A stretch of 64,000 bases of DNA from NCBI RefSeq assembly GCF_032854445.1, contig NC_088301.1, positions 40,845,187-40,909,186 of the forward strand. The letters run 5' to 3'. Both the position numbers and the translations under genes were made by a program. Of this stretch, positions 10,507-58,919 are shown piece by piece. Within the stretch, counting starts at the first letter, position 1. Every line of letters starts with the position of its first letter. This DNA comes from Liolophura sinensis (taxonomy: Eukaryota; Mollusca; Polyplacophora; Chitonida; Chitonidae). The notes beneath the pieces were generated by a model, which saw only the letters and a program-made list of their open reading frames with translations, was not told the DNA's origin and searched no databases.

Positions 10507-13500
10507 TCATCTCCATCTAAAGCCAAAACTGCGAAACAAACCAAGATCAATTAAGTTGATTTATCAACAAAAAACCCCACAAATATCAGTTATGCACCAG
10601 ATGGATTCTGGATGAGAATACTTTATTTGGCAGTAAATCTATTTGTACTCAATGAAAATGTTTTAAAGAAAACACTTAGTAGAAACAAAAGTAATCCATG
10701 TATATGTAGTAATAACGCCATTCACTGACAGCATGCCCATAGCAAAGCCAGAGTGCTGCCATAACACAAACAAATCGTGAATACAGAAGACTGAAAAGCA
10801 TATTTGTTCTCAGAAGTGTTATTGGTAAATTTTATTTACTTATAACACTGTTGTGTTGTTAGTCCAAGCATAAATTCTGTTTCATATCACCGAATGCACA
10901 AATTTTCTGGCAAATATAATATCGCTCTAAATGGCACATCCACCTACAATGATATTATCTGTGCTTGAAAATCTGCAACACAGCTTTATGAAACAGGTGC
11001 TGGCTGTTATTGTTTACTTCAAAACATTAGATTTTTTTTTTCTTTTTTTTTTTTTTGTATATCTTTGCCCCAGTGTCACCCTTTACAAAGACCATGCTGT
11101 CAGTGACTGACTGGCTAAATGGCAGAATTTTAGTGGCTATTCAAAAGACAAAATGCAACTCACCCAGCCATATATGTATAGCCACTTGGAAAATGACCCG
11201 GTTTACAGATGTCCTTTAAAAATTCTGGATCTAACGCTGTGAATGTGTCATGCAGTTAACTGGACTTTCCACCACAGCAGACAACGGTGTTAAATCCTGT
11301 ATAAAACTCAACGTTTTACACTTCCACTGCTCATAACAATAGGCAAATATGCCAGGACACAGCTTAATCATAAACTGATCTCCCTGCATATTGTTAATGA
11401 ACAGGATATACTTATATAGATGACCTGGACAAAGTGTGCCTCCTTGGATCCTCACAACTGCTCATACTGATATACACATGGTAATGCCTTTGCCTTAGCT
11501 ACATCTCTAGTGTATTTGAGTGAGCGAGTGCTTGAGGTTTAATGTGGTACTTATCGATTTTTCAGTCATATGACAAAGGAGTCCTTGTAGTACATGTAAT
11601 GTGCTTCCTTGTTTCAAGATGGATTTCCACCGCTCTTTCATCTTGTGCTGCTTCACTAAGACGACTTACCGAAGGCAAGCAAGCCACCCCACCTGAGCCA
11701 TTAAACTGTTACGGGTCAATCAGTTGTTGCACATCCCCTTCATGTGAGTGAGCGAATGCTTGAGGTTTAACGTAGAGCTCAACAATTTTTCGGTCATATG
11801 ACGACGAAGGAATCCTTACAGTGTATGTAATGCACCTCCTTGTGGCAGTACAGATTTCCACCTCTCTTTTATCTAGTGCTGCTTCACTGAGACGACTTAC
11901 CAAAGGCAAGTAAGCCGCCGCCCGAGCCATTATACTGATACGGGTCAACCAGTAGTTGCACTATACCCTTCCTGCTGAACACCAGGCGAGTAAGTTACAA
12001 CTTCCTCTTTTTTAAGGTCTTAGGTCTGACTCGACCCAGGATTTATCCTGCATCTACCGCTCCCGAAGCGGACGCTCTACCAACTATGCCATTTGGGTCG
12101 GTAGGAAGTAGAGTATTTGAAGAATCTTGCGGAGTTTTCCGCTGATTAGACCCTATACTACTGGAAGACAGTTACTTTAAATGTGATTGTTTTGACACAT
12201 ACATGTACCATCTATCCCAGATGCATTTTTCAAAAGAAAACTCAACATTGATAACGTGCCCTGACTCATGGTATTTCAAACTAGAATGGGGAAAAATATA
12301 CAATGGGCAATTTATATATCTAGACATCGGGACCCTGAAGCTAAAAGAAATATTTAAATAAATTTTTCACCAGGTGGTGTTATGTTTGTTGCTCATTTTG
12401 AACAATGTCAGTGAGTTATACATCATAGCATTCAAGGTAGCAAGACAATAAAATATTTGCTGGAGTGCGGTAAGTTGAACAGAGAATCAATAAAATTGCT
12501 CATTTAAACCTTAATCCGAAAACTTTTTAAATAATCATCATAGGTAAAAGAAAAAAAATTTCAACAAAATCCAACTCACTGCACACATAACTTGATATAC
12601 TTGTTAACTGGGCAAATGAACTTGGTGCATGAAGTGTTTTTATTCAATTCAATGCGTTGTTTCTGTGGTAATTCAATGTAATACTTTGGTGACTATTTAT
12701 CCATTATCATATTTGGAAACTCCTTTGGTGTGTTTGTCTTATTGTAAAATTCAACAACAGATTCGCTGCACTTTTTCACTGGTCTAGCATGTAGATATGG
12801 ATCAAGTGTAATATTAGCAAAATGGCAACCTTCCAATATAGAAGACAGAATAATAAAGACAGATATCACGTGAAAATAAGTAACCTATACTCTCTACAAT
12901 GCTGGTACATTATTTGTATATTATTATCTATAAACCTTTTCTATTAAAATTATACTTAATGTGATTCAGTGATTTTGCAGGCAGCACTGTATTTACACGG
13001 GTCATTAACTCTCTATATACACAGTTAAGTCAACTAGAGTTTTGGAGTTGCTATCAAAGGTTCATTTGTAAATCACTTAATTTATAAAATTCAGTACTTG
13101 TGTGGTCATTTTTCTTCATAGACATTGTTATATTTTCGGACAATTTCTGAGATTTCTAATTTTCTAAGAAATGTACTTCAGTGATTTACATGCTTTTTAG
13201 GTTTTAACTCTAGAACAACTGGTTCGTAATGTATTCACTTTTAAATATCCCACCACCCAATAAAAAAATCCTTTGTTCTAATATTTGTAAGACAAACATT
13301 AAAAATCAACTTTTTCTGCACACTGGAATGGAGGTAGGACAGAGACGTGTATATTATACTATTATTAGAATGAACATGATTTATTTCTGTCATCGAAGCT
13401 TTAAAAGAACAAGTACCCCAAACCATTTAGGTTTACATGTATGTTTGAAGTTGATGATGTGCAGATCTTTCTTTTCCGTTTCTTTTATTTAGACTTTAAA

Positions 13501-23749: not shown

Positions 23750-24530
23750 ATCCAAATTCACTGCATAGTTTTGTGACCATGCTGAGATTATCCCTTGCTA
23801 CTACAACTTTTAGCAAGGTGCCATTGTTTTGTGATAGGTATGCTGTAACCACACTCAGTGAGGTGCCATCTTTTCTTTTGTTTTTTTTTTTTTTTTGATA
23901 TTGCCTCATACCCACTGAGAGACCATCTTTTTGTGACAATGCTATAACCAGTCAGGGAGTTACCGTCTTTTTGTGTTAATGCTGCAACCAGTCAATGAGC
24001 TGTCATCTTTTTTTTTTTTGAGATATTGCTACGACCATTGTTTGTGAGTTACCCTCGTTTTGAAATAACGTTGCAACCAATCAGTGAGTTGCTATCGTGT
24101 TGTGATACTGCTGCCACCACAATCAGTGAGTTAATTATCATCCATCGTTCACCACCAGTCAGTGAATTGCCATCGTTTTGTGATAATGCTGTGACCACAA
24201 GCAGGGAGTTGCCGTCGTTTTGTGATAATGTGCTGCCATCACAATCAGTGAGTTGACATCGTTTTGTGATAGGCCTAATGCTGCGAACACGGTCAACTGA
24301 TTGCCGTCGCTTAATTTTAGTGATACAGCTGCAAGCTGAGTTAGTGAATTGCCCCAGTTTTGTGATTATGCTGCGACTACAGTCAGTGAGTTACTGTCGT
24401 TTTATGATAATGATGCGTCCAAAGTCAGTGAGTTAGGGTATCCTTTTGATAATACTGCGATCATAGTCAGTCTGTTAATAGTTTTAGAATAATGCCGTGA
24501 CAACAGTATAAGCTGCCAGCGTCTTTGATA
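23750..24530. repeat. Degenerate minisatellite, ~42-bp unit, about 17 copies
   Basis: Successive units begin near GAGTTGCCATCGTTTTGTGA and end near GCTGCGACCACAGTCAGT. Most units are 41-47 bp. Some carry T-run expansions (around 23880 and 24010) or deletions. Units near 24160-24240 are closest to each other and the outer ones are more diverged. A 76-codon plus-strand frame across it merely reads the repeat (ELPSFCDN-like blocks), so I do not call a gene. Confidence 0.85.
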
Positions 24531-30118: not shown

Positions 30119-31498
30119 ATGCTGGCACCATTTCCAAGAACGTCGGTGTATCCGACAATTATGCCTAGAGTCCAGAAAAACAACAAGAAGCTGGGGAAAG
30201 TCTCTCATCAGATGCAGAAAATCATAGATGATATACAAGGAAAACGATCTGAGGATGTCAAATGTCGTGACTTTCACACAGCTGACGAAGGACAAAGGAA
30301 ACGTGCGAGTTTACGCGAAAGGGAAGATCCCTCGAGACAAGATCGCCGATACCAGCGTCGAAAGTCTCGACGAACCCGTGATTATAACAACAAACTGAGA
30401 GAGACAGCCTGCCAAACTACGATGCTTGAGGGTTCTCAGGATTTTGGTCAGAGTGACGGGAAGCGCCTAAAACATACGAACAAAAACTGCCAACCCTTGG
30501 AAATAACATCTGGAAGACAGGTGAAAAAAATAGATTTGACCAACAATGAATCAGGATCACAGGAAGAAGCCCGTCGAATGAACAATAAATATCTAAAAGC
30601 GAAGGCGGGAATATGTGGAGATGCAATAGCACCTTGGATGCGTCCTCTACCTCCAGTGCCTGAACAGGTATATCAGAAATCCAAATCGCAGGCCCATGTG
30701 TACCAGAAAGTTTTCGAAACGCTGAAGGCTAGGATGAAAGTTGAAAAAATCGAGAACATTCCTGAAAACACTTGGACATCCCTGTCCTTCAGTCCATCAA
30801 AATCTTTGTCTGAGCGAACTGGAGAGAGCGAATCAACTAAGGAGTTCTCAAGATACGTCGACATTGACGTCATCAGTGAGGAGAAGACCAAACCGCAGAT
30901 AATCCAGTTCAACCGAGAACAGATTTCACCTGAATCTGATAAACGGCTCGCTGATCACGGTGAATATGACGAAGACCACATTTATGAAAGTATCGACGAA
31001 AACAGCGACTGTGAAGATAACCACAAACTCTCTAACTGCCGTGAGCTGTTCCCCAATGAAGATACTCCCGCATCCGTTCATCTACTGCCCAATCTTTTGT
31101 CCCAGAGACTAGCCACTCCCTTTAGTCTAGAGTTGACATTTTGTCATGAAGACACTTACCTCCAACCGGTGTTTCCTCAAGAACTTCCAGACTGCAAGAA
31201 CACCTCGGAGGGAAATGTGGAGCTTACGCGACAAGGGCAATCCACCCTATTGTACACTTCAGATAAAATCCCAGACTTTAATGTTTGTTCACTAGAAGTA
31301 TCATCAATTCCGATATGTACGCGACACGAAATAACCAATGATTCTCCAGATAGGTGTTGCTCAGACGAATATCCAAATGTGCAATGCCCATCCTGTAGTA
31401 CTGACTTTCAGTATTCAAGAGATTATGCAGGATCTCCAACTTGGTCCAACAATTCACCCCAACATGAAATACTCCCTCTAAAAGCAACATATGTGTAA
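30119..31498 (+). CDS. Unidentified 459-aa protein with SH3- and PDZ-ligand motifs
   Basis: The longest intact ORF in the window, uninterrupted, with an in-frame TGA stop shortly upstream (about 30074). Translation starts at 30119 or at the in-frame ATG 30161. I recognise no domain. Residues 58-95 are very basic (RKRASLRERED, RRYQRRKSRRTR), nuclear-signal- or RNA-like. RPLPPVP at 175-181 matches the class I SH3 ligand (R-x-L-P-P-x-P). YQKSKSQAHVYQKVFE follows. An acidic patch at 279-300 contains DHIYESIDE, an SH2-type tyrosine site. The C-terminus TYV fits a class I PDZ ligand (T-x-V). There is no signal peptide or membrane segment. Low complexity and lack of domains suggest a mostly disordered adaptor or scaffold. 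It stands alone, with a TATA-like box, a leader intron and an ATTAAA signal about 275 bases after the stop. The function is unknown; the motif readings are inference. Confidence 0.75.
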   Translation: MLAPFPRTSVYPTIMPRVQKNNKKLGKVSHQMQKIIDDIQGKRSEDVKCRDFHTADEGQRKRASLREREDPSRQDRRYQRRKSRRTRDYNNKLRETACQTTMLEGSQDFGQSDGKRLKHTNKNCQPLEITSGRQVKKIDLTNNESGSQEEARRMNNKYLKAKAGICGDAIAPWMRPLPPVPEQVYQKSKSQAHVYQKVFETLKARMKVEKIENIPENTWTSLSFSPSKSLSERTGESESTKEFSRYVDIDVISEEKTKPQIIQFNREQISPESDKRLADHGEYDEDHIYESIDENSDCEDNHKLSNCRELFPNEDTPASVHLLPNLLSQRLATPFSLELTFCHEDTYLQPVFPQELPDCKNTSEGNVELTRQGQSTLLYTSDKIPDFNVCSLEVSSIPICTRHEITNDSPDRCCSDEYPNVQCPSCSTDFQYSRDYAGSPTWSNNSPQHEILPLKATYV

Positions 31499-33949: not shown

Positions 33950-34345
33950 AGCAGAACGCGTCGTTTTCCTCTGTGACGTTGCAGTGCGTGTTTACTTTGT
34001 ATATGTTTTATGAGCACGCCTACACAGATAATTGTGACGAAATAAAGGAAAGAACAAATGAATTCACAGCTTTGGGCCATCTTGATACAGACGGGAAGCA
34101 GTTTTACGAGTTTCCCATTTCGATGTTCTTGTAAAAAAAAAAGTATATAAAAATGCGAGTTGAAGTTGCACGGTGGAAGTACGCAACTTATTCGTAACCT
34201 CCACAAAGAGCACTTTCTTCTGTGAATAAATTAGTAAAAGGGAAAAAGTTGACTGTCTTAAGACTCCGATGTTACTACAAACTAATGTATATAACAAATG
34301 ATAATGCAGTTGCACGGTGGAAGTTTGGAACTTCACAATATTATC
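33950..34345. repeat. Dispersed repeat R1, copy 1
   Basis: The first part (33980-34115: GTTGCAGTGCGTG, ATAAAGGAAAGAACAA, TTCACAGCTTTGG, TTTTACGAGTTTC) recurs at 53230-53410. The second part (34200-34345: CTTCTGTGAATAAATTAG, AATGTATATAACAAATGATA, GTTGCACGGTGGAAGTTTGG) recurs at 43130-43300. Within this copy GTTGCACGGTGGAAGT occurs twice (near 34165 and 34311), about 146 bp apart. The class is unknown. Confidence 0.65.
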
Positions 34346-34565: not shown

Positions 34566-34859
34566 GCGTTGCATAGTACCTTTTGAGTGGCTCTAGTACA
34601 ACTTGACGTTTGGGTGGAAGTGTACGCCGTCGCGTACATGGTAAGGTTAACCACGTGGATAAGTCCTGAATGTTTATCCGTAAGAGTATTAGCTGACGAA
34701 AAGGAATGTTTGTCATGCGATAAATGCATTGGTTTTGCTATTACATTCGATCTGTTGCAGTTCACCAATATATAAGTCTGTCCATTTATATCAGGTCTTA
34801 CTTATTTTACTGATATATGGGCCTACACATGTAAACATACTATACAAGTCTGGGAGCTA

Positions 34860-35562
34860 GGCGAGGTTTAATTAACATGGACGATATAAAAGGTTTGAGG
34901 TGAAGGGGGTGTAGTACTACCCAGCCTTTACAAAGAATAGCCATTCTTTCATTCCGGAGGTGGTGGGTGTGATAGGGGGCGCCAGCCGAAAACTCCCAAA
35001 ATTGGATTTAATTAACATTAAAGGTACAAGTTTCACTTCTATGCCAAGTGATTATGGGCACCACACATAATCCAAATGTAGAGGGTGGTTGCCTGGTTGA
35101 GAATCACTAAAGTAAGAATGACATTTGTGGTGGAAAGGTCACATAAAAATAGGTCAAAGGTCTCTAATTAAACCAGGAACTAATTTAAATTGCCCTATCT
35201 CTTGAACTAAATTATACACCAAGTTGAAATTGGTCTCTAAATGAAGAGGGAGTAAAGAAGCACAACTGGGATGTCAAAACGTTTTAGAATGTTACATCTA
35301 ACTGGGTCAAATTTTGGAAAAAGCACCTAAAAATGTACCTTCTTGACCCCCTGGCTAATTACCATTTTAATTAACACGAAAGGTACAAGTACAAAACCAC
35401 TGCGGATTTGTAGATGGTTGTCATCTGAATATAAATCACCAACTTAAGAACGGAAATTGTGGTGGGAACATCACTTCCATGTTTAATTAACATGGAAGGT
35501 AAGCGTTTAAAACAACATGGACATTGTTGAGAATGGTGTTATGGTTCAGAATCACTTATTGC
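34860..35562 (+). repeat. Left terminal inverted repeat
   Basis: About 700 bp matching the reverse complement of 42045-42745 with scattered substitutions and small indels. It carries four copies of a motif TTTAATTAACAT..AAGGTA at about 34867, 35006, 35365 and 35481. Confidence 0.85.
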
Positions 35563-37157
35563 TTTGCCTTTATTGATTAAGGATTTGCCTACCTAGATTA
35601 TTCACGGAGGACCATAAATAAGCATGGGTTGTCTTTCTGATTGCTTCTGTTAATCTTACTGGAGTATGTTTATATCAGCATTTCGGGTGCTTTCTGAAAT
35701 AAACTGACTGTTTGGTCTCTGCAGCCCAGAACGTGGTGCGCCAAAACACGTCTTCACGGGTTAGCATACGTCAAAGGTCGTCTATACGGGGGAAAGAGAT
35801 AATTCAACTATTTTATAAACTTTCCTCGTTAGAGTAGGCCTCTACCCCAAGCCCCAATTAGATATCAAGTGGCATGCCCTGTAGCATCTCGATGTAGGTC
35901 TCGCTGTCTCGTGTACATTAGAGAGGATTAGTTGCAAGTTTTGTGACGAACTTCTAACTTGTAGAATTGTGAACGACGTCATCACTATTTGCGCAGGTCT
36001 TGAAGTTGGCGTCTGCAGCTTACCAGTTCCTGACGTCAAGCAGACGATCTTCACATAGGTTAAAACTTCTATTTATAAAGCCTTAAACCTTCCATTTTTT
36101 GTGCCAAGACTACACGTGTTAGGTAATGCAATATGTGCAAAAACTAGTTATTGTTTGTTTCCGCTAATTTATTTTTGATTTAAGAAAGAAATGTTTTTTT
36201 TTTTTGACAGCTCGGTTTTGCATAGAAGGTGAACAACAACATAATCTTGACAAAAGTAGCAAGCTAGGCTTTTGACTTTAGTCGTAAGCATTTATTTTTG
36301 GAACAAATTCAAGTTTTCAAGCATGGAAATCACTGCCTTCCACCTATGTGATTCGGGATAATCATCCGTGCGACCATTGGCTCTGGAAACAGTATACGTC
36401 GTATGTGGAAGAGTTGGTAGTAACTCACCAAAGGTTGATGGATTACTGCGGGAACTCCATTTCCTCCACCCATGGAACTGACAAGCCGGCAAATAATTGA
36501 AATAATATCGCCCTGACGATAAAATCAATGAATCAAGCCCAGCCTTCGTCTGGGAATTTATAAAATGGACCTATTCAAGTAAAACTTTTAAAAAATGCCT
36601 ATAGACCTATAGGTCAGTCTCAAGGGTGGAGGAGAGAAGAGTGTGCGTGGTCTACAGAGGGTCGGGGCATAAACAATCCTGATACAGACAGGGGTTAGAA
36701 CCTAAGCCCCGCATATGCGCTCAGGGAGAAAGTAAAACTTTCAGTCTTACCAGTCTTAGCAGATGCTGGTCAGTTGAAAGCAGCAGGTCTTTTAATTTGT
36801 TTTCAACCCAGGTAAATATAACATTAATTACGTTTCATAAAGTACAATTATACTATTTTGTTGTTACACATAGATCATCCAGCTAAATATCAAAGACCCC
36901 GTTACAAGTTTAAGTATACTTGATTAACTTATAACTAAACGTAAAATGCCAAATTTGTAACTTGTAACTTTTAACTACAAGTTATAAGTTAGAAGTAAAA
37001 CTTGTAACTAAACCTCTTTTAGGAGAGGCAATAGAAATGCTGAGACGATGGAAAACAATTTTAGTTAGCTGTACGCTTTAGGCATAACAAATTACACGAT
37101 ACCGTGTGGCCCATGCATTAATAACAGCAACATTCTTTCCAGGCTGATTTTTGCTAC
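35563..37157. other. Transposon interior between left TIR and ORF, no gene recognised
   Basis: About 1.6 kb inside the element without a supportable coding region. Minus-strand frames at 35842-36054 and 36292-36528 are open (71 and 79 codons) but I recognise nothing in them. A palindromic AAC-TTGTAACTTTTAACTACAAGTT segment lies near 36955-36990. Confidence 0.45.
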
Positions 37158-40100
37158 ATGGCTACACCCAGTTGCTCCAGTGATCCTACCGACTGTGCTT
37201 CATCCAACACTGCAGAAACAACCAGAATATGTATCCTCCATGTGGACCAACAAGGAAAGCAGAAACAAGCGGATATTTTGCTGTTCAAACCGGAAATGTG
37301 GACATCAGTAGCTGAATCTGCATCTTGACCAAAGCAGATGAAAAACTTTGATAAAGCCAAGTATTACCGTGTAGTTAAGTCCCCCCCCTCCCCCCCCCCA
37401 TCCGAACCAGACAGTGAGCATGAATATCATGTCTTTTGCTATAAAAACTTCACGGCAGTCTCACATAAGAGAAATACGGGAACAACGCCCACTGAAGGGA
37501 CGTCCAGCTCAAAGCATCTGAGTTTCTGCTACAGAATTCTTCCTAGAGCCTGCATCTACATCTGGCATGTAAATGCCTTTCCTGTAATAAAGCAAGGAAA
37601 AAAGAAAGGTTTTTCAGAGGAAAGACTTGGGGCTTGTGAAACAAAGCAAGCTGAAGCCACATTCAAGGCAGGGGCATGAGTGAAAAAAGATAACAAACTC
37701 CTCGCTGGGTTGACTTTGTAGCGAAAGAGGTCATGTGCCATCACAGTTGAAAATCGGTCTACACAAAACTACCAAAACCAGTGTCAAAGGGCAGTGAAAA
37801 GACTAAGCATGGACTTAAAGGTATCTATTCATATGTTGAGAGGTCGGTCATCTTGAACAAGAGACCTGAGCTTCTGACTTCAGTATATGCTCAGTATGAA
37901 GAGACGTGTGAAAATATTGGAGAAACCCCAATAGCAACAGCCCAAAATTTGTTAAGAAACAGGCTTAACAAATTTGGGGAGTGTCTGAGAGTACAGGGTT
38001 GTGGGGCTGAGGGGCCACTTCGAGCTGCATATGACTATGTTTCTTCAGCAGTATACAGAAGGCAGCTTTAAAACTGCGAAAGGCGATAAAGGATGTGAAG
38101 AGAGATCCTCTTGTTGATCCCCCAACACTGCAAAATTTGCGCTCTGGAGAAGCATCTCCACCTGATCGCCTCCTTTCATTCTACAGAGTTCTCTATGATG
38201 GCCTCAATATCAAATTGTACAGCCCTAAGTTGTAAAAGCGTGCTTCCTCATCTAGTCAAGATGCCATTTACATAGTCGAAAATGGTCATGTAAAACCCGG
38301 AAAATAGATTATTCTGGGTATGGCGATTAAATAGATGACCGGAAGCAAAAAAGATCGTCCAGATGTTGAACAGGTTTGAACATATCATAGATTATAGTAC
38401 AACAGAGGAGGTTGAAACATCCTTGGGTGAGGCCATACAGAATAAGCAAAACACTTGCCCAGAAGGGACCATCGACAACATGGTCATGGGACTGGCCTTT
38501 GACAATTTCGATTAAATGACAGAGAGAGTGTCGGGAGTGGACACGCTTCATGACACAATGGGTATTCTGTACCAAAACAAAGTGGATCCAAGCCAGGCTG
38601 TAGGCACATCAGTTGAAATTTGGAATATGTCATAAAGACAGCAGATGGCAGTCGTCCTGATGAGAGACCCCAAGCCAGAAAGAAGGATTTGCCGTGTATG
38701 ATGTGCCATGCATTGGGCATGTCCAACATACCAATGTGGGTTGGATATAATTCCTTGACTGAACCTGACAGTTCGACTGAGCAAGTGGTTCTGTACATGA
38801 AGAGCCTGAACCAACCAATCACAATCCTGGGTTTCATACAAGAAACCCTCATCACGACGCAAAAATGTGCCGCTAGTGTGGCCAACAGTATGGAGTGGTA
38901 ACATACGGCCTAAATGCAGCCAAGCCGGCCAGGCAGATTCCTGGGTTTCTCACTGACTGCGACGTGTTGGCACCTGGCTCATTGAATGGTTTGATAACAG
39001 GCAAACATTTCAACAGGTGCAAACGGATCCATCCCATCCTTGCATTGGCATTCGAGATTCTCCATTTTCAGACATTTTTGAGACACTTAATGGGAAGGAA
39101 GAACTTGCACCTTTGTCGTGTTCATTCGACAGAGATCCAGATGCGGACACATGGCAAGCAGTAGAGTCTTCTGAGATATTTATCTTGTGCGTTACACGAG
39201 AAGTACACACTTGAGACGAGGACTGGGACACACGGGGCGACGGCACAATTCTGGATTACTTATGTTTAACTACATCTATGACTTCCACAATCTAGAACGT
39301 GCTATCAGGACAGATGACATTGACCTGTTCATACATGCTCTCACTCCAGTTATCCAACTATTCTTTGCAACAAACCATATCCACTATCCCCGCTGGTTGT
39401 TAAAATTCCAGTTGGACCTGGTAAACATTGACAATACACACCCTGGCCTTTGCACTCTTCAACGGAATGGTGCCTTCACCGTCAAGAGAACAGGCAAGTA
39501 CTTCAGCAGATGTCCAGTGGATCTAACGTTGAAGCAGACGGTGAACGCAGACGCAGCTTCTTGACACACAGGTCTGTTATCTGCCACCAATAACTACAGC
39601 GCACGCCTTCGACGGATGATAACCAAGTCTGCTCGTGGTACCGTCATAGCCGCTGTCCAGGAGTTGGCCGGAATGTCAAAGCGTGAAGATACAACTGCGG
39701 AATTGCACAGATCACGAGGGATACCTCCGACCTACAGAAGATCATTGAGCAGATAAGGGGATGATGCGATCCCTTTTTGAAGTCATTTAAAGTATCCCCA
39801 TGCATGTTTGATATCAGAACGGGGATAGTGACCAGTGGACTTATCAGGGAATGTCTACTTGGATTGAGACAAAAGGGGAAAGAACGGCATGAAGAGTTCA
39901 TCAAGTCATGCTTCGAAAACCCAAACCACTTCGGTCAATCAAGAAGGGGAGGCTGCTGACGTTCAAGGAGTATTGAAAATCAAGTAAACAGAGCAAATAT
40001 AAGCGTCATGTCCGACATTGATATACCATTCATAGTCCGTAAAAGGCGTTCCAAGTGGATAATCGCAAGATTCATTTCCAAAGACAAACGGATAGCCTCT

Positions 40101-41514
40101 CTAGTGTGTTCACGTGACCTGTTGGGACGACTGCTTGTACTAGCCTGTAAGGAAGATCTGGACTTGAAACATGTCCTCTTTTACCCCTTAACAACGATTC
40201 CTCTCTCAATATGCAAGACCGATGGCTTGATGATGAAAACAGACATGAGCGCTCTTCTCCAAATCCTCGAAGACAGGGGCGATCAGCTCCAACCACAGTG
40301 GATGCAACCGTCATTGATGGCAATTTCTTTCTGAGGACCCTCCCGTCTCATCTTACATGAACATATGGTGACTTACCGGCTGGTATTCTTGAGAAAGTGA
40401 CTACTATGTCAGGAAACTAAGTCGAAATAGTTTTTGACGCATGCCCTATTCCGTCTATCGAGGATAATGAACGGTCTAGAAGAGGTCTTGGTGAGAAGGA
40501 TGAGCGGGAGTATATTATATCTGGTGCCGAGCAAAAGCACCCAAAGAACATTGGTGGCTGCCTACAATCTACATCATTCAAGGAGAAACTACCAAAGTTC
40601 CTAGCGGAAGAATGGGTGGCACAGCACTATGCAAGATTGCAAGCATGTGTGCCTCTCTTACCTTGGGCCTGGTTTCAGTTCTACGTCCGAAGGAGACGTA
40701 GTAGTTAGAGAAGACGAAGACAAACCACGAAGAAGCGGACACACTAGTCTGTGCTCACATAAAATCTCTGGACGATGGAAGTGTCCAGAATGTGATCGCG
40801 AAAGCATCCGACACAGATATGACTGTCATACTGGTCGATCATTCTTGGAACATTCGAGCGAACGTATGGATGGATATTTGTACATCAGTATGAAACGACA
40901 GAATGTATATCAACATTACTTATGTTGGTAAGACAATTGGAAAGATGCTTTCCGATGCCCTGCCCGCTTTCCAATCCTTTACAGGATCAGATTACACTTC
41001 TGCCTTTGTCAGAAAGGGCAAGGTACGCCCATTCAAGCAGCTGGAAAAGGACACTGAAGCACAAACAGCATTTGCAGAAACGGCGAAAGGAAACCTGAGC
41101 GAGAAGACTACACAAGATGTAATGTCTTTCACAGCAAGGATGTATGGCGCGAAGACAACGGGGGCAGCCCTATCCTTGGACGCATGTCGGCACCAAGTGT
41201 TTGAGAAAGCTTTGGGCCAAAGTCTACAAAACCCACTGAAGAAATTAAGGGGCATCGATGCGACATTGGTTCCACCCTGTAAAACAGATATTTCCCAACA
41301 TATCCGACGAGCGTCTTTTGTTGCACGAATGTGGTCAATTGCGGACGCTGCTGACATCCAGCAACATCCTACTGAAGAGGAGTCGTACGAAATTTCTTGG
41401 TTGAGTGGTGCCCAGCTGCCAGATGCATTGGTACCAGACAAGACAGCTACCAATGAGAAACTGTTGAAGACTTCTAGCTGTCCTCTTCAGATGAAGAGGA
41501 GAGTGTCGTCATGA
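37158..41514 (+). pseudogene. Decayed transposon protein with C-terminal PIN/XPG-like nuclease
   Basis: One gene read through at least eight frame changes and stops. It starts at ATG 37158 (MATPSCSSDPTDC...), then ILHVDQQGKQKQADILLFKP and, after TGA at 37326, HVFCYKNFTAV (37430s, Cys-rich zinc-ribbon-like). Further segments I associate with a widespread metazoan transposon-protein family are YAQYEETCENIGETPIATAQ (37.88 kb), MGLAFDNFD then VDTLHDTMGILYQN (38.48-38.58 kb), IDLFIHALTPVIQLFFATNH and PVDLTLKQTVNADA (39.3-39.56 kb), SRDLLGRLLVLACKEDLDLK (40.1 kb) and the nuclease core. The core has HEEADT at 40726, DTD at 40810 and LPAFQSFTGSDYTSAF at 40956-41006; these acidic residues resemble the PIN/FEN metal site. 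The last segment (40903-41511, 203 aa) is open. As it stands no single frame can make the whole protein. Confidence 0.75.
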
Positions 41515-42044
41515 GATGAGGATGGGTTGTCGGATGATAGTTGACATTAACAACAGATAGGATATCCAAGCCCTTTTAAATCTTTCGTGTTAAAACGTCT
41601 GTGATCATTTCTTCCTGGTTATGCAAGAGGTAGGACTTGAGTCAATTGTTTTGGGATTCAACTAGCCTATGGCTATTGTGTAATGGCCTGCCCTCTGCAG
41701 CTTGCATGCTATCTATAGAGTTAGTAAACAGGGTACATTTTTACCTGGTTTTGAAACTTCACGGTTTATAAACCTTGTTTTTGCAAAAATAAACTGGTCA
41801 CTGAGAAGGAATTGTTCTAAAAACCTGGCGCTCTAAGGGTTAATTCAATTTTATTGAGTGCAATCATTATTCTTTTATATACAAACGCTTCTAAAAAGCT
41901 GCTGATTATTAAATATTATGGTTATTCCTAATTGAGAGACCATTCGCAATAATTCCTATGTTATTTTTAACCTGTTTAAACTTCATGTTAATTAGGTGTA
42001 ATAGTGGGTGTTAAGTGACCTTTCCACCACAATTTCCGTTCTTA

Positions 42045-42745
42045 TGTTGGTGATTCTGAATCATAACACCATTCTCAACAATATTCATGTTGTTTTAAAC
42101 GTTTACCTTCCATGTTAAAATGTTAATTAGAGGTCATTGGGCGTGGTATGACCTTTGACCTATTTTTAAGTGACGTTCCCACCCCAATTTCCGTTCTTAA
42201 GTTGGGTGATTTATATTCAGATGACCACCATCTACAAATCCACAGTGGTTTTGTACTTGTACCTTTCGTGTTAGTTAAAATGGTAATTAGCCTGAGGGTC
42301 AAGCAGGTACTTTGACCCAGTTAGATGTAACATTCTAAAACGTTTTGACATCCCAGTTGTGCTTCTTTACTCCCTCTTCATTTAGAAACCAATTTCAACT
42401 TGGTGTATAATTTAGTTCAAGAGATATGGCAATTTTAATTAGTCGTTCTTACTTAAAATCTTAACTAGTGATAGTTAACGTCGTTCTTAAGTGATCTTTC
42501 GACCAGAAATTCCATTCTCACCTTGTAGATTTGGATTATGTGTGGTGCCCATAATCATTTGGCATAGAAGTGAAACTTGTACCTTTAATGTTAATTAAAT
42601 CCAATTTTGGGAGTTTTCGGGTGGCGCCCCTATCACACCCACCACCTCCGGAATATAAGAATGGCTGCTCTTTGTAAAGGCTGGGTAGTACTACACCATC
42701 TTCACCTCAAGCCTTTCGTACCTTCCATGTTAATTAAACCTCGCC
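42045..42745 (-). repeat. Right terminal inverted repeat
   Basis: Inverted partner of 34860-35562. It has inverted copies of the TTAATTAA motif near 42730, 42590, 42265 and 42110, plus an extra one near 41985 just inside the arm. An open frame at 42607-42882 spans the end and is not a gene. Confidence 0.85.
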
Positions 42746-43129
42746 CAGTTTCCAGATACATCTTTCGCATTCTATATTTCAACGTTTATACGCTTCAATC
42801 CAACAATATAAACGTGAAATTATATCTATCAGGTGTCATTTTACTTTTGTTTTGCTACGATTTTCATTTTTCATGCATTTAGCATAATTGTAGAAGCAAC
42901 TGGTTCACTCTTTTACCTGTCTGCAGAACATAGAAGAAGCAAATTGTCAAATCATTAAAAAATGTCTTTGCCACATGTAGGCCTTTAGGGTTAAGTTAGA
43001 TGAACTTTCGTGTAGGCTTATTGTCTTTCATAAATGTATTTTCAACTGCACTACATCTCCTAATCCACAAAAACACCAGTTTTGTGAGAAAAACTCATCA
43101 TAAAGCTTCTTGAACGAGAAAACACGACC

Positions 43130-43300
43130 CACTGAGCTAAACGTAACCTCCACATACTGCACTTTGTTCTGTGAAGAAATTAGGAAAAAGCTAAAATTAA
43201 CCGTGTTAAGTAAAAACACCCCGACAGTACTTCAAATTAATGTATATAACAAATGATAATGCAGTTGTACGATGGAAGTTTGGAACTTATTCACAGTGTT
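43130..43300. repeat. Dispersed repeat R1, copy 2 (second part)
   Basis: It matches 34200-34345 in the same orientation (CACTTTGTTCTGTGAAGAAA, AATGTATATAACAAATGATA, TGGAAGTTTGGAACTT). Confidence 0.65.
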
Positions 43301-43883
43301 GTAATACCCTGTATAGGCCCCGGTTAATAACGTAAATGGTTGATGTTTTTTGTGTGCGTGTGAATATGTTGTGGACTTGTAAAGTTCGGTGTGAGTAGGC
43401 CTATTTGATGTAATTTCATCAAATAATCAGAATTCATGGATAGTTTTTTATTGTTTACTTTTGAGAATAGCATCGTTGACATTATAAACTATATTTCACT
43501 GTTCTCTAACTCGTAAGACTCTCTTTGTGTAAAAATCCGGAGCCAGTTCGCCGAGCGGCAGACTTGATTTTCTGTGATCAATATCGTAAGTACATGTGTT
43601 TTGATGCCAGCTAACTTTATTGCAAGATCATGCAATCTGGAAACTAGCCCTTTGAACACTGTTTATCCTGTCCATTTGTGTGGCAAAGATTTGTCTTATT
43701 GCTGACCAATTAACTGATTTCCGACAATGATACAATGCGCTTGGTCATTATGTGTCATTATGTGGTTGCAGGGACTAGTTTTCCGACACATTTGGAATTA
43801 AAAACCTCTGTAATTACTTGATATGAAAGTTACATTATTATGTTCAGTCTTGCATTTTACTATGCAAAGCGGATGTTTTAAAG

Positions 43884-44240
43884 TGAGTGCTTGGGGTTTA
43901 ACGTCGTTCTCAACAATTTTTCAGTCATATGACGACGAAGGAATCATTAGGGTGCATGCACGTGTAATGTGCCTCCTTGTTGTAGGACGGATTTCCACCG
44001 CTCTTTTATTTAGTGCTGCTTCACTGAGACGACTTACCGAAGGCAAGTAAGCCGCCCCGCCCGAGCCATTATACTGATACGGGTCAACCAGTCGTTGCAC
44101 TATCCCCTTCATGCAGAACGCCAAGCGAGGAAGTTAGAACTTCCTCTTTTAAAGTCTTAGGTGTGACTCGATCAAGGATTGATCCTGGATCTACCGGTCC
44201 CGAAGCGGACGCTCTACCAACTGTGCTATCCGGGCCGGTT
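43884..44240 (-). mobile_element. tRNA-derived SINE, second family, full length
   Basis: Best copy of the family. On the minus strand the head is CCGGCCCGGATAGCACAGTT then GGTAGAGCG (A box TAGCACAGTTGG) followed by GGATCAATCCTTGATCGAGT (B box GATCAATCC). The body matches 11.75-12.11 kb through GGCAAGTAAGCCGCC and CTGCTTCACTGAGACGACTT to GTGAGTGCTTGGGGTTTAAC. Confidence 0.85.
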
Positions 44241-57839: not shown

Positions 57840-58121
57840 GGATAGGTTGCGTGGCAGGTACGTTTTATTGCGACACGCCTTTACACGTGAGAAGAAGTGA
57901 GAAAGGTAACTATTTTATCTTGGTCGTATATTTCTGACCCTGAAAAACTCTTGCGATAATATCAAAGACTGTGTGTTGTGTATTTCCGAAGAAGAATTGT
58001 GAGAAGTTCTTCCGGTTACTTGATAGATTTCAGCCGTTTGTGACTTGTCACATTGTGAAAAGTTTTCACGAATTTTGTCATGCTTTTTCGTGTCAAGTCC
58101 GAACCTGTTTTCTCTATAAGA

Positions 58122-58919
58122 ATGGCTACAGTTACAGTCAGGAAGAAAACTCGTCGTGGGAGAAGGAAAGGAAACCGGTTTAGCTCAAGCAAGAGGTCGG
58201 TGTTTATTCCAGCACGAAATTGGTTGGAGAAAGGAGACAGAAGTAAGATAAACTTTGCAGCAGAAAATATTACTTCTGGGGGGTGCCCGATCTCGGACCA
58301 GATTGAGAACAGTGCACCTTATGATGGCTGCGAGTTTTTCTACAGCCATTGGTGGAATTGCACGCCTTTCAAAAAAACCCAGAAACTTGTTCGTCCACCA
58401 TACATGCCTATTGCACCAAATAATTCAACACAATTCATCATTGACAGTCATTTTGAAATCGAGTTTGACAAGACTGGACGAGATGAAGTAGAGGAAAGCA
58501 TTGTAACAGGTAATTATGGAGACTCAGAGAGTGAAAAGAATGAGCACAGTGGTGGTGTTCAGCACTCAGCTGTGAGTGAGGACCTGTCCAGAAACAGCCA
58601 AAGAATGAAATTAAAACCTTGTACAAATCGTACAGACATAACAGACCGATGTCAACAGCATAATGAAACTCCAGAAGATAATCTCAAAGAGGGGGTCGTT
58701 GAAGGATCCTATCTACTTGAAATAGACTATGATTATGAATCGCTCTACAATGATGACTTTTTCGAATTTGTTCATAATGACTTTGTACAGACATATCAAG
58801 AACTGCAGAGAGAGAAATTATTGAGACTGCCAAAATCAGAGCTTATTGTTAAAATCATGGAACTCGAGACAAAATTTGATGAATTACAGAGGAAAGAGGA
58901 GATGCAGAATTTGACGTGA
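58122..58919 (+). CDS. HEXIM1: HEXIM family P-TEFb inhibitor
   Basis: HEXIM proteins, bound to 7SK RNA, hold P-TEFb (CDK9/cyclin T) inactive in the nucleus. This intronless reading frame is 265 aa from ATG 58122 (context AGAATGG, just after a likely splice acceptor); an in-frame ATG at 58080 would lie in the leader intron. Residues 7-19 are an arginine-rich RNA-binding motif (RKKTRRGRRKGNR). FFYSHWWNCTPFKKTQKL is at 72-89. IAPNNSTQFIIDSH at 97-110 aligns with the family's APYNTTQF motif. An acidic stretch runs 118-142. At 205-260 the cyclin-T-binding dimer region contains NDFVQTYQELQREKLL then KSELIVKIMELETKFDELQR. Odd points: the motif PYNT is PNNS, the basic motif is at the very N-terminus, and the C-terminal coiled coil ends soon after its first half (human HEXIM1 is 359 aa, HEXIM2 286). 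Vertebrate HEXIM1 is also intronless in its coding part. Confidence 0.87.
   Translation: MATVTVRKKTRRGRRKGNRFSSSKRSVFIPARNWLEKGDRSKINFAAENITSGGCPISDQIENSAPYDGCEFFYSHWWNCTPFKKTQKLVRPPYMPIAPNNSTQFIIDSHFEIEFDKTGRDEVEESIVTGNYGDSESEKNEHSGGVQHSAVSEDLSRNSQRMKLKPCTNRTDITDRCQQHNETPEDNLKEGVVEGSYLLEIDYDYESLYNDDFFEFVHNDFVQTYQELQREKLLRLPKSELIVKIMELETKFDELQRKEEMQNLT

Follow-up and report, generated by a model that had tools for sequence, protein, structure and literature searches.

The nuclease of AcademX is of the XPG type. Academ as a whole is counted among the superfamilies with a DDD/E transposase (PMC9587614), and two lineages are distinguished within it, AcademX with target-site duplications of 3-4 bp, tied to its nuclease, and AcademH with duplications of 9-10 bp, tied to its helicase (PMC10045372). 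In bivalves, Academ consensus sequences average 5,565 bp (PMC10294476). Here we describe an element at 34849-42756 of the window (the whole 64-kb stretch of DNA that was analysed), 7,908 bp in full and with inverted arms at both ends, which we consider most likely a decayed copy of a low-copy, cut-and-paste DNA transposon of the AcademX type. Feature coordinates are collected in Table 1.

Table 1. Positions of the features of the element in the window.
Feature	Position	Strand	Remark
Possible left target-site duplication TAC	34843..34845	.	Valid only if the right end has lost its terminal triplet CTA
Left terminal inverted repeat, ~0.71 kb	34846..35560	+	AAG-TCTGGGAGCTAGGCGAGGTTTAATTAACATGG at start; likeness to right arm from 34849
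Four left-arm copies of TTTAATTAACATGGAAGGTACAA	34867, 35007, 35366, 35482 (range 34867..35504)	+	
N-terminal part, broken coding region	37338..38071	+	
Middle part, broken coding region	38071..39561	+	Candidate DDE/RNase H-like region; weak DUF6589 match
LAFDNFD	38492-38512	+	Middle part; candidate catalytic site by eye
VVTYGLNAAKPARQI	38895-38939	+	Middle part; candidate catalytic site by eye
ILALAFEILHF	39036-39068	+	Middle part; candidate catalytic site by eye
Dispersed repeat, ~93 bp	39995..40087	+	Inside coding region
C-terminal FEN/XPG-like region	40185..41514	+	
VIDGNFFL	40310-40333	+	C-terminal region
VFDACPIPSIEDNERSRRG	40430-40486	+	C-terminal region
HEEADT	40726-40743	+	C-terminal region
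DTD	from 40810	+	C-terminal region; 84 bases after HEEADT
LPAFQSFTGSDYTSAF	40960-41007	+	C-terminal region
Right terminal inverted repeat, ~0.71 kb	42045..42756	-	
Three right-arm copies of TTTAATTAACATGGAAGGTACAA	42257, 42577, 42716 (range 42257..42738)	-	
Possible right target-site duplication TAC	42757..42759	.	Same condition: right-end CTA lost

Results

Ends and inverted arms

A reading made beforehand from the sequence only had proposed matching inverted arms of about 0.7 kb, and these are confirmed by blastn within the window, where 34849-35476 pairs with 42756-42168 (84% over 631 columns including gaps) and 35487-35555 with 42118-42050 (94%), as well as by alignment of arm against arm (712 bp each), which gives 90.2% identity over 661 ungapped positions. 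Arms of this length are far beyond chance. They differ by 43 transitions and 22 transversions (K2P 0.106), a divergence that implies that the window copy is not young. The same reading had set the borders at 34860 and 42745 and taken GAGGTTTAATTAACATGG as the tip; GAGGTTTAATTAACATGG is indeed the same in both arms, but it lies inside the true tip and the edges are 11 bases further out on each side, since the likeness between the arms, in the majority of other copies as in the window, starts at 34849 and stops at 42756. TAG stands immediately outside TCTGGG at 12 of 20 ends (10 of 16 with three copies on contig C3, described below, counted once), and TAGTCTGGGAGCTGGGCGAGG is the likely end of the element. 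The window copy has AAG in place of TAG at the left and no such triplet at the right. The arms also share a repeated motif, TTTAATTAACATGGAAGGTACAA, with seven matches in the 64-kb window at up to three mismatches, all of them in the arms (four left, three right), compared to none in 100 shuffled controls; these copies may represent candidate protein-binding sites. The element stands between the two copies of an 81% direct repeat (34193-34333 and 43142-43288), at distances of 515 bases on the left and 385 on the right.

Copies across the genome

We searched the source genome (609 Mb, 632 contigs) with the terminal 32-mer, allowing up to three mismatches, and recovered 19 ends at 12 loci on five contigs, window included (reversed control, 0), with both ends at seven loci and one end at five; C2:10.09 Mb is a thirteenth locus, whose end has diverged. 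Coding remnants of the same family lie outside the window at C7:40.37, C13:6.20, C3:23.86, C3:23.96, C3:24.03, C2:10.09 and C9:4.98 Mb, the last of which also shows a 73-base coding DNA match. These remnants come from a protein search in which all 33 candidates were scored, and which we relied on instead of the coding DNA search (53 matches listed, with the best 40 of 1,488 first-look candidates scored). Arms are present at all seven of these loci, and the ends are common to loci with different flanks, as expected of the DNA transposon proposed earlier. Two contrary observations had been named in advance by the sequence-only reading, and neither appeared in the genome-wide search: no coding remnants of the same family were found without arms, and the arms, rather than surrounding unrelated interiors, enclose shortened forms of the same interior or none of it. 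Five two-ended copies outside the window measure 564, 1,554, 2,374, 2,407 and 3,680 bp, with 0, 57, 299, 441 and 1,421 interior bases, respectively, matching the window element (blastn; the 1,421 bases include the dispersed repeat of the coding region), and these shorter, internally deleted copies look like non-autonomous derivatives.

Flanks differ between loci, save for two cases. The three copies at C3:23.859, 23.963 and 24.027 Mb (L035, L033 and L036) have both flanks in common, and the C3 insertion was therefore probably multiplied by segmental duplication within ~170 kb. The C5 copy, with 3,751 bp between its ends, is a palindrome at C5:18.780-18.784 Mb (L041, L043) with identical outer flanks, which reflects either duplication in inverted orientation or an artefact of the assembly.

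Target-site duplications and empty sites

To count duplications, we excluded the C5 palindrome, treated the three C3 copies as one insertion and set aside one-ended copies as unusable. Among the four testable insertions, two have a clean duplication, ATA on both sides with TAGTCTGGGAGCTGGGCGAGG taken as the end (L053 at C13:18.0 Mb and L064 at C7:52.3 Mb). Comparison of the flanks, which had been proposed as a check, thus gave a mixed outcome: the C3 insertion has TTG vs. GTG, with no matching duplication, and the window copy has a duplication only if a triplet was lost (Table 1). From these flanks, the target-site duplications are probably 3 bp long. Flank repeats of 9-10 bp were not seen by eye at any of the four testable insertions. 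Searches for empty sites of the window and C13:18.0 Mb insertions returned none, as the matches were to the flanks of the insertions themselves and, in the case of C13, also to a dispersed repeat (one search scored the best 40 of 274 candidates).

A broken coding region

The view that the element holds one decayed plus-strand coding region stands, with stops and frameshifts throughout: the three forward frames of 37150-41514 contain 70, 61 and 47 stops, and the longest intact plus-strand frame in the coding region is 203 aa (40903-41514). Because the frame is broken in so many places, the window copy is unable to make its protein. It is also without ~35 residues of the middle part compared to a relative (L072; by eye). 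The ~93-bp dispersed repeat is probably a later insertion; 37 of the 53 listed coding DNA matches cover about that stretch only, at 88-96% identity. Some Cys and His residues can be seen by eye at 37413-37747, in the N-terminal part.

The C-terminal region

A PIN/XPG-like nuclease had been proposed from a layout of HEEADT, DTD about 80 bases on and then LPAFQSFTGSD, and the positions of these motifs are confirmed, with a spacing of 84 bases. Read-through of the C-terminal part gave distant relatives at C6:25.16, C6:72.99, C7:35.34, C10:30.50 and C9:11.42 Mb. We built an alignment of six read-through sequences, with L031 and L032 excluded and both L073, which matched over a short part only, and the C9:11.42 Mb locus left unused, and compared it with FEN/XPG, the sole family profile-compared and one picked beforehand from the motifs. 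With eight FEN/XPG proteins as the reference profile, hhalign in local mode gave a score of 42.3 (P 5.8e-5, probability 65.6), a value that no column shuffle reached (0/300, maximum 22.9), and reversing the alignment gave 15.5; the local alignment spans DTD to TGSDY..GKV. Adding the L072 pieces gave a score of 39.5, again with no shuffle as good (0/100, maximum 18.9), and a two-protein FEN1 profile found the TGSDY..GKV stretch alone (P 0.014). When the N-terminal half was used by itself, VFDACPIPSIEDNERSRRG aligned to VFDGKPP of FEN1 (P 0.02, without shuffle control). In global mode, 1/300 shuffles beat the real alignment, and hence this mode provides no evidence and was dropped. As to the catalytic acids, DTD and GSDY fall inside the local alignment and VFD inside that of the N-terminal half; the placement of VIDG and HEEAD follows from their order only.

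The region therefore resembles the FEN/XPG family (FEN1, EXO1, GEN1, XPG) in profile from DTD to GSDY..GKV, weakly in the VFD stretch, and apparently in the order of its acidic motifs, but it belongs to a much larger protein and is beyond the reach of Pfam and PDB sequence searches. Specifically, the Pfam XPG model matched none of the sequences scanned, PDB sequences held no relevant match for the C-terminal single sequence or profile, and AlphaFold, run on a single window fragment, returned a mean pLDDT of 33.4 and no usable fold. The nuclease proposal is thus upheld by the FEN/XPG profile likeness and without support from Pfam, PDB or fold prediction; a distant FEN/XPG nuclease at the C-terminus is likely on the profile comparison. 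The 203-aa frame also matched Pfam DUF6321 (E 0.0009; 20.3 bits, below the cut-off of 28.5), a match seen in one of the six aligned sequences and probably due to chance, which calls for caution over the weaker DUF6589 matches described below. No relatives were found in the viral contig set, in the genome contig set (including a search for FEN1 relatives) or in phages; one viral pattern match (L071) was rejected, such a protein being absent there.

The middle region

Two further distant relatives, at C7:28.17 and C4:7.18 Mb, were found via the middle part. Two of five middle pieces match Pfam DUF6589 over overlapping stretches of the profile, the window at positions 277-356 and the L069 segment, which belongs to a different family, at 275-324, both with 14.1 bits and E 0.019, far under the cut-off of 27; the L067 segment and two L072 pieces show no match. 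Our search of the literature on DUF6589 (PF20231) found nothing relevant. Proteins with these middle motifs are presumably common among uncharacterised predictions from marine invertebrates and fish.

By eye, LAFDNFD of the window pairs with RDNTD of L072 and TYGLNAAKPARQI with VCDQALYGKAAEI, and LALAFEILHF follows as a candidate in the window; the second D is replaced by G in the window copy, where its surroundings are shortened. An order D...D (G in the window copy)...E would suit a transposase of the RNase H fold. Hence, the earlier statement that there is no DDE triad has become doubtful, in that such an order can be proposed by eye from the window and one relative, even though the window itself has G for the second D. 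Among the six loci with distant relatives, four (L067, L069, L070 and L072) were checked over 4-5 kb and showed no inverted arms longer than 42 nt, and their ends may lie beyond that distance; L067 has two short imperfect inverted pairs.

Discussion

A nuclease together with inverted repeats at the ends and duplications of probably 3 bp fits AcademX, a lineage of DNA transposons with terminal inverted repeats. AcademX is described as having a nuclease and duplications of 3-4 bp (PMC10045372), and membership is probable as judged by these published traits. At 7.9 kb, the element is longer than the bivalve Academ mean of 5,565 bp (PMC10294476). Alternatively, the element might represent an undescribed superfamily with a FEN/XPG-like nuclease, in which mobility would depend on the DUF6589-like domain or on the nuclease. 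Consistent with this view, the Pfam matches of the scanned pieces include no transposase model at E up to 10, and DUF6589 appears, at E 0.019, in two pieces of different families. However, the missing transposase match says little, given that the presence of an Academ model in Pfam is uncertain, and a nuclease and duplications of 3-4 bp are already joined in AcademX (PMC10045372); we regard a separate superfamily as unlikely.

AcademH, the helicase-bearing lineage, shares its superfamily with AcademX (PMC10045372), yet its helicase and its duplications of 9-10 bp are both unseen here: the Pfam matches of the three read-through parts include no helicase, which a broken copy may have lost, and the flanks at the four testable insertions are without repeats that long. 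This assignment appears highly improbable. An origin without transposition, i.e., a decayed host gene around which duplication formed an inverted repeat, could draw on the C5 palindrome with its identical outer flanks and on the flanks common to the three C3 copies, but the same ends recur at 12 loci on five contigs with flanks that differ apart from those two cases, and we give such an origin hardly any weight. The find is real, if largely ordinary, and the nuclease-bearing transposon lineage to which this decayed element belongs is most likely AcademX. No description of such an element was found among the titles of the literature searched, a search with Repbase and most subscription journals outside its scope.

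Under the AcademX reading, one multidomain protein would bind the arms via the repeated motif, its middle domain (DUF6589-like and perhaps an RNase H-fold DDE enzyme) would cut and join the ends, the XPG-type nuclease would trim flaps, hairpins or second strands, and insertion would leave a 3-bp duplication. It is tempting, if doubtful, to go further and propose that a DUF6589-type domain is fused here to a FEN/XPG nuclease, that DUF6589 is a transposase domain, and that the transposon uses its own flap-type nuclease to process intermediates. The matches in the middle region provide a first, weak link between DUF6589, a family of unknown function, and a transposon protein. The superfamily has received little study, and the present family contributes to it mapped ends, duplications that are probable and copies of reduced length; the element alone has little wider consequence.

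Other features of the window

Repeat copies at 11523-12102 and 43882-44239 are 83-86% identical and contain a tRNA-like stretch by eye, perhaps indicating a SINE, and a minisatellite with units of ~42 bp occupies 23922-24471. There is also an intact 459-aa frame at 30119-31498, for which Pfam gave no match at E 0.01, and an intact 279-aa frame at 58080-58919 that matches Pfam HEXIM (E 4.5e-12) and is probably a host gene.
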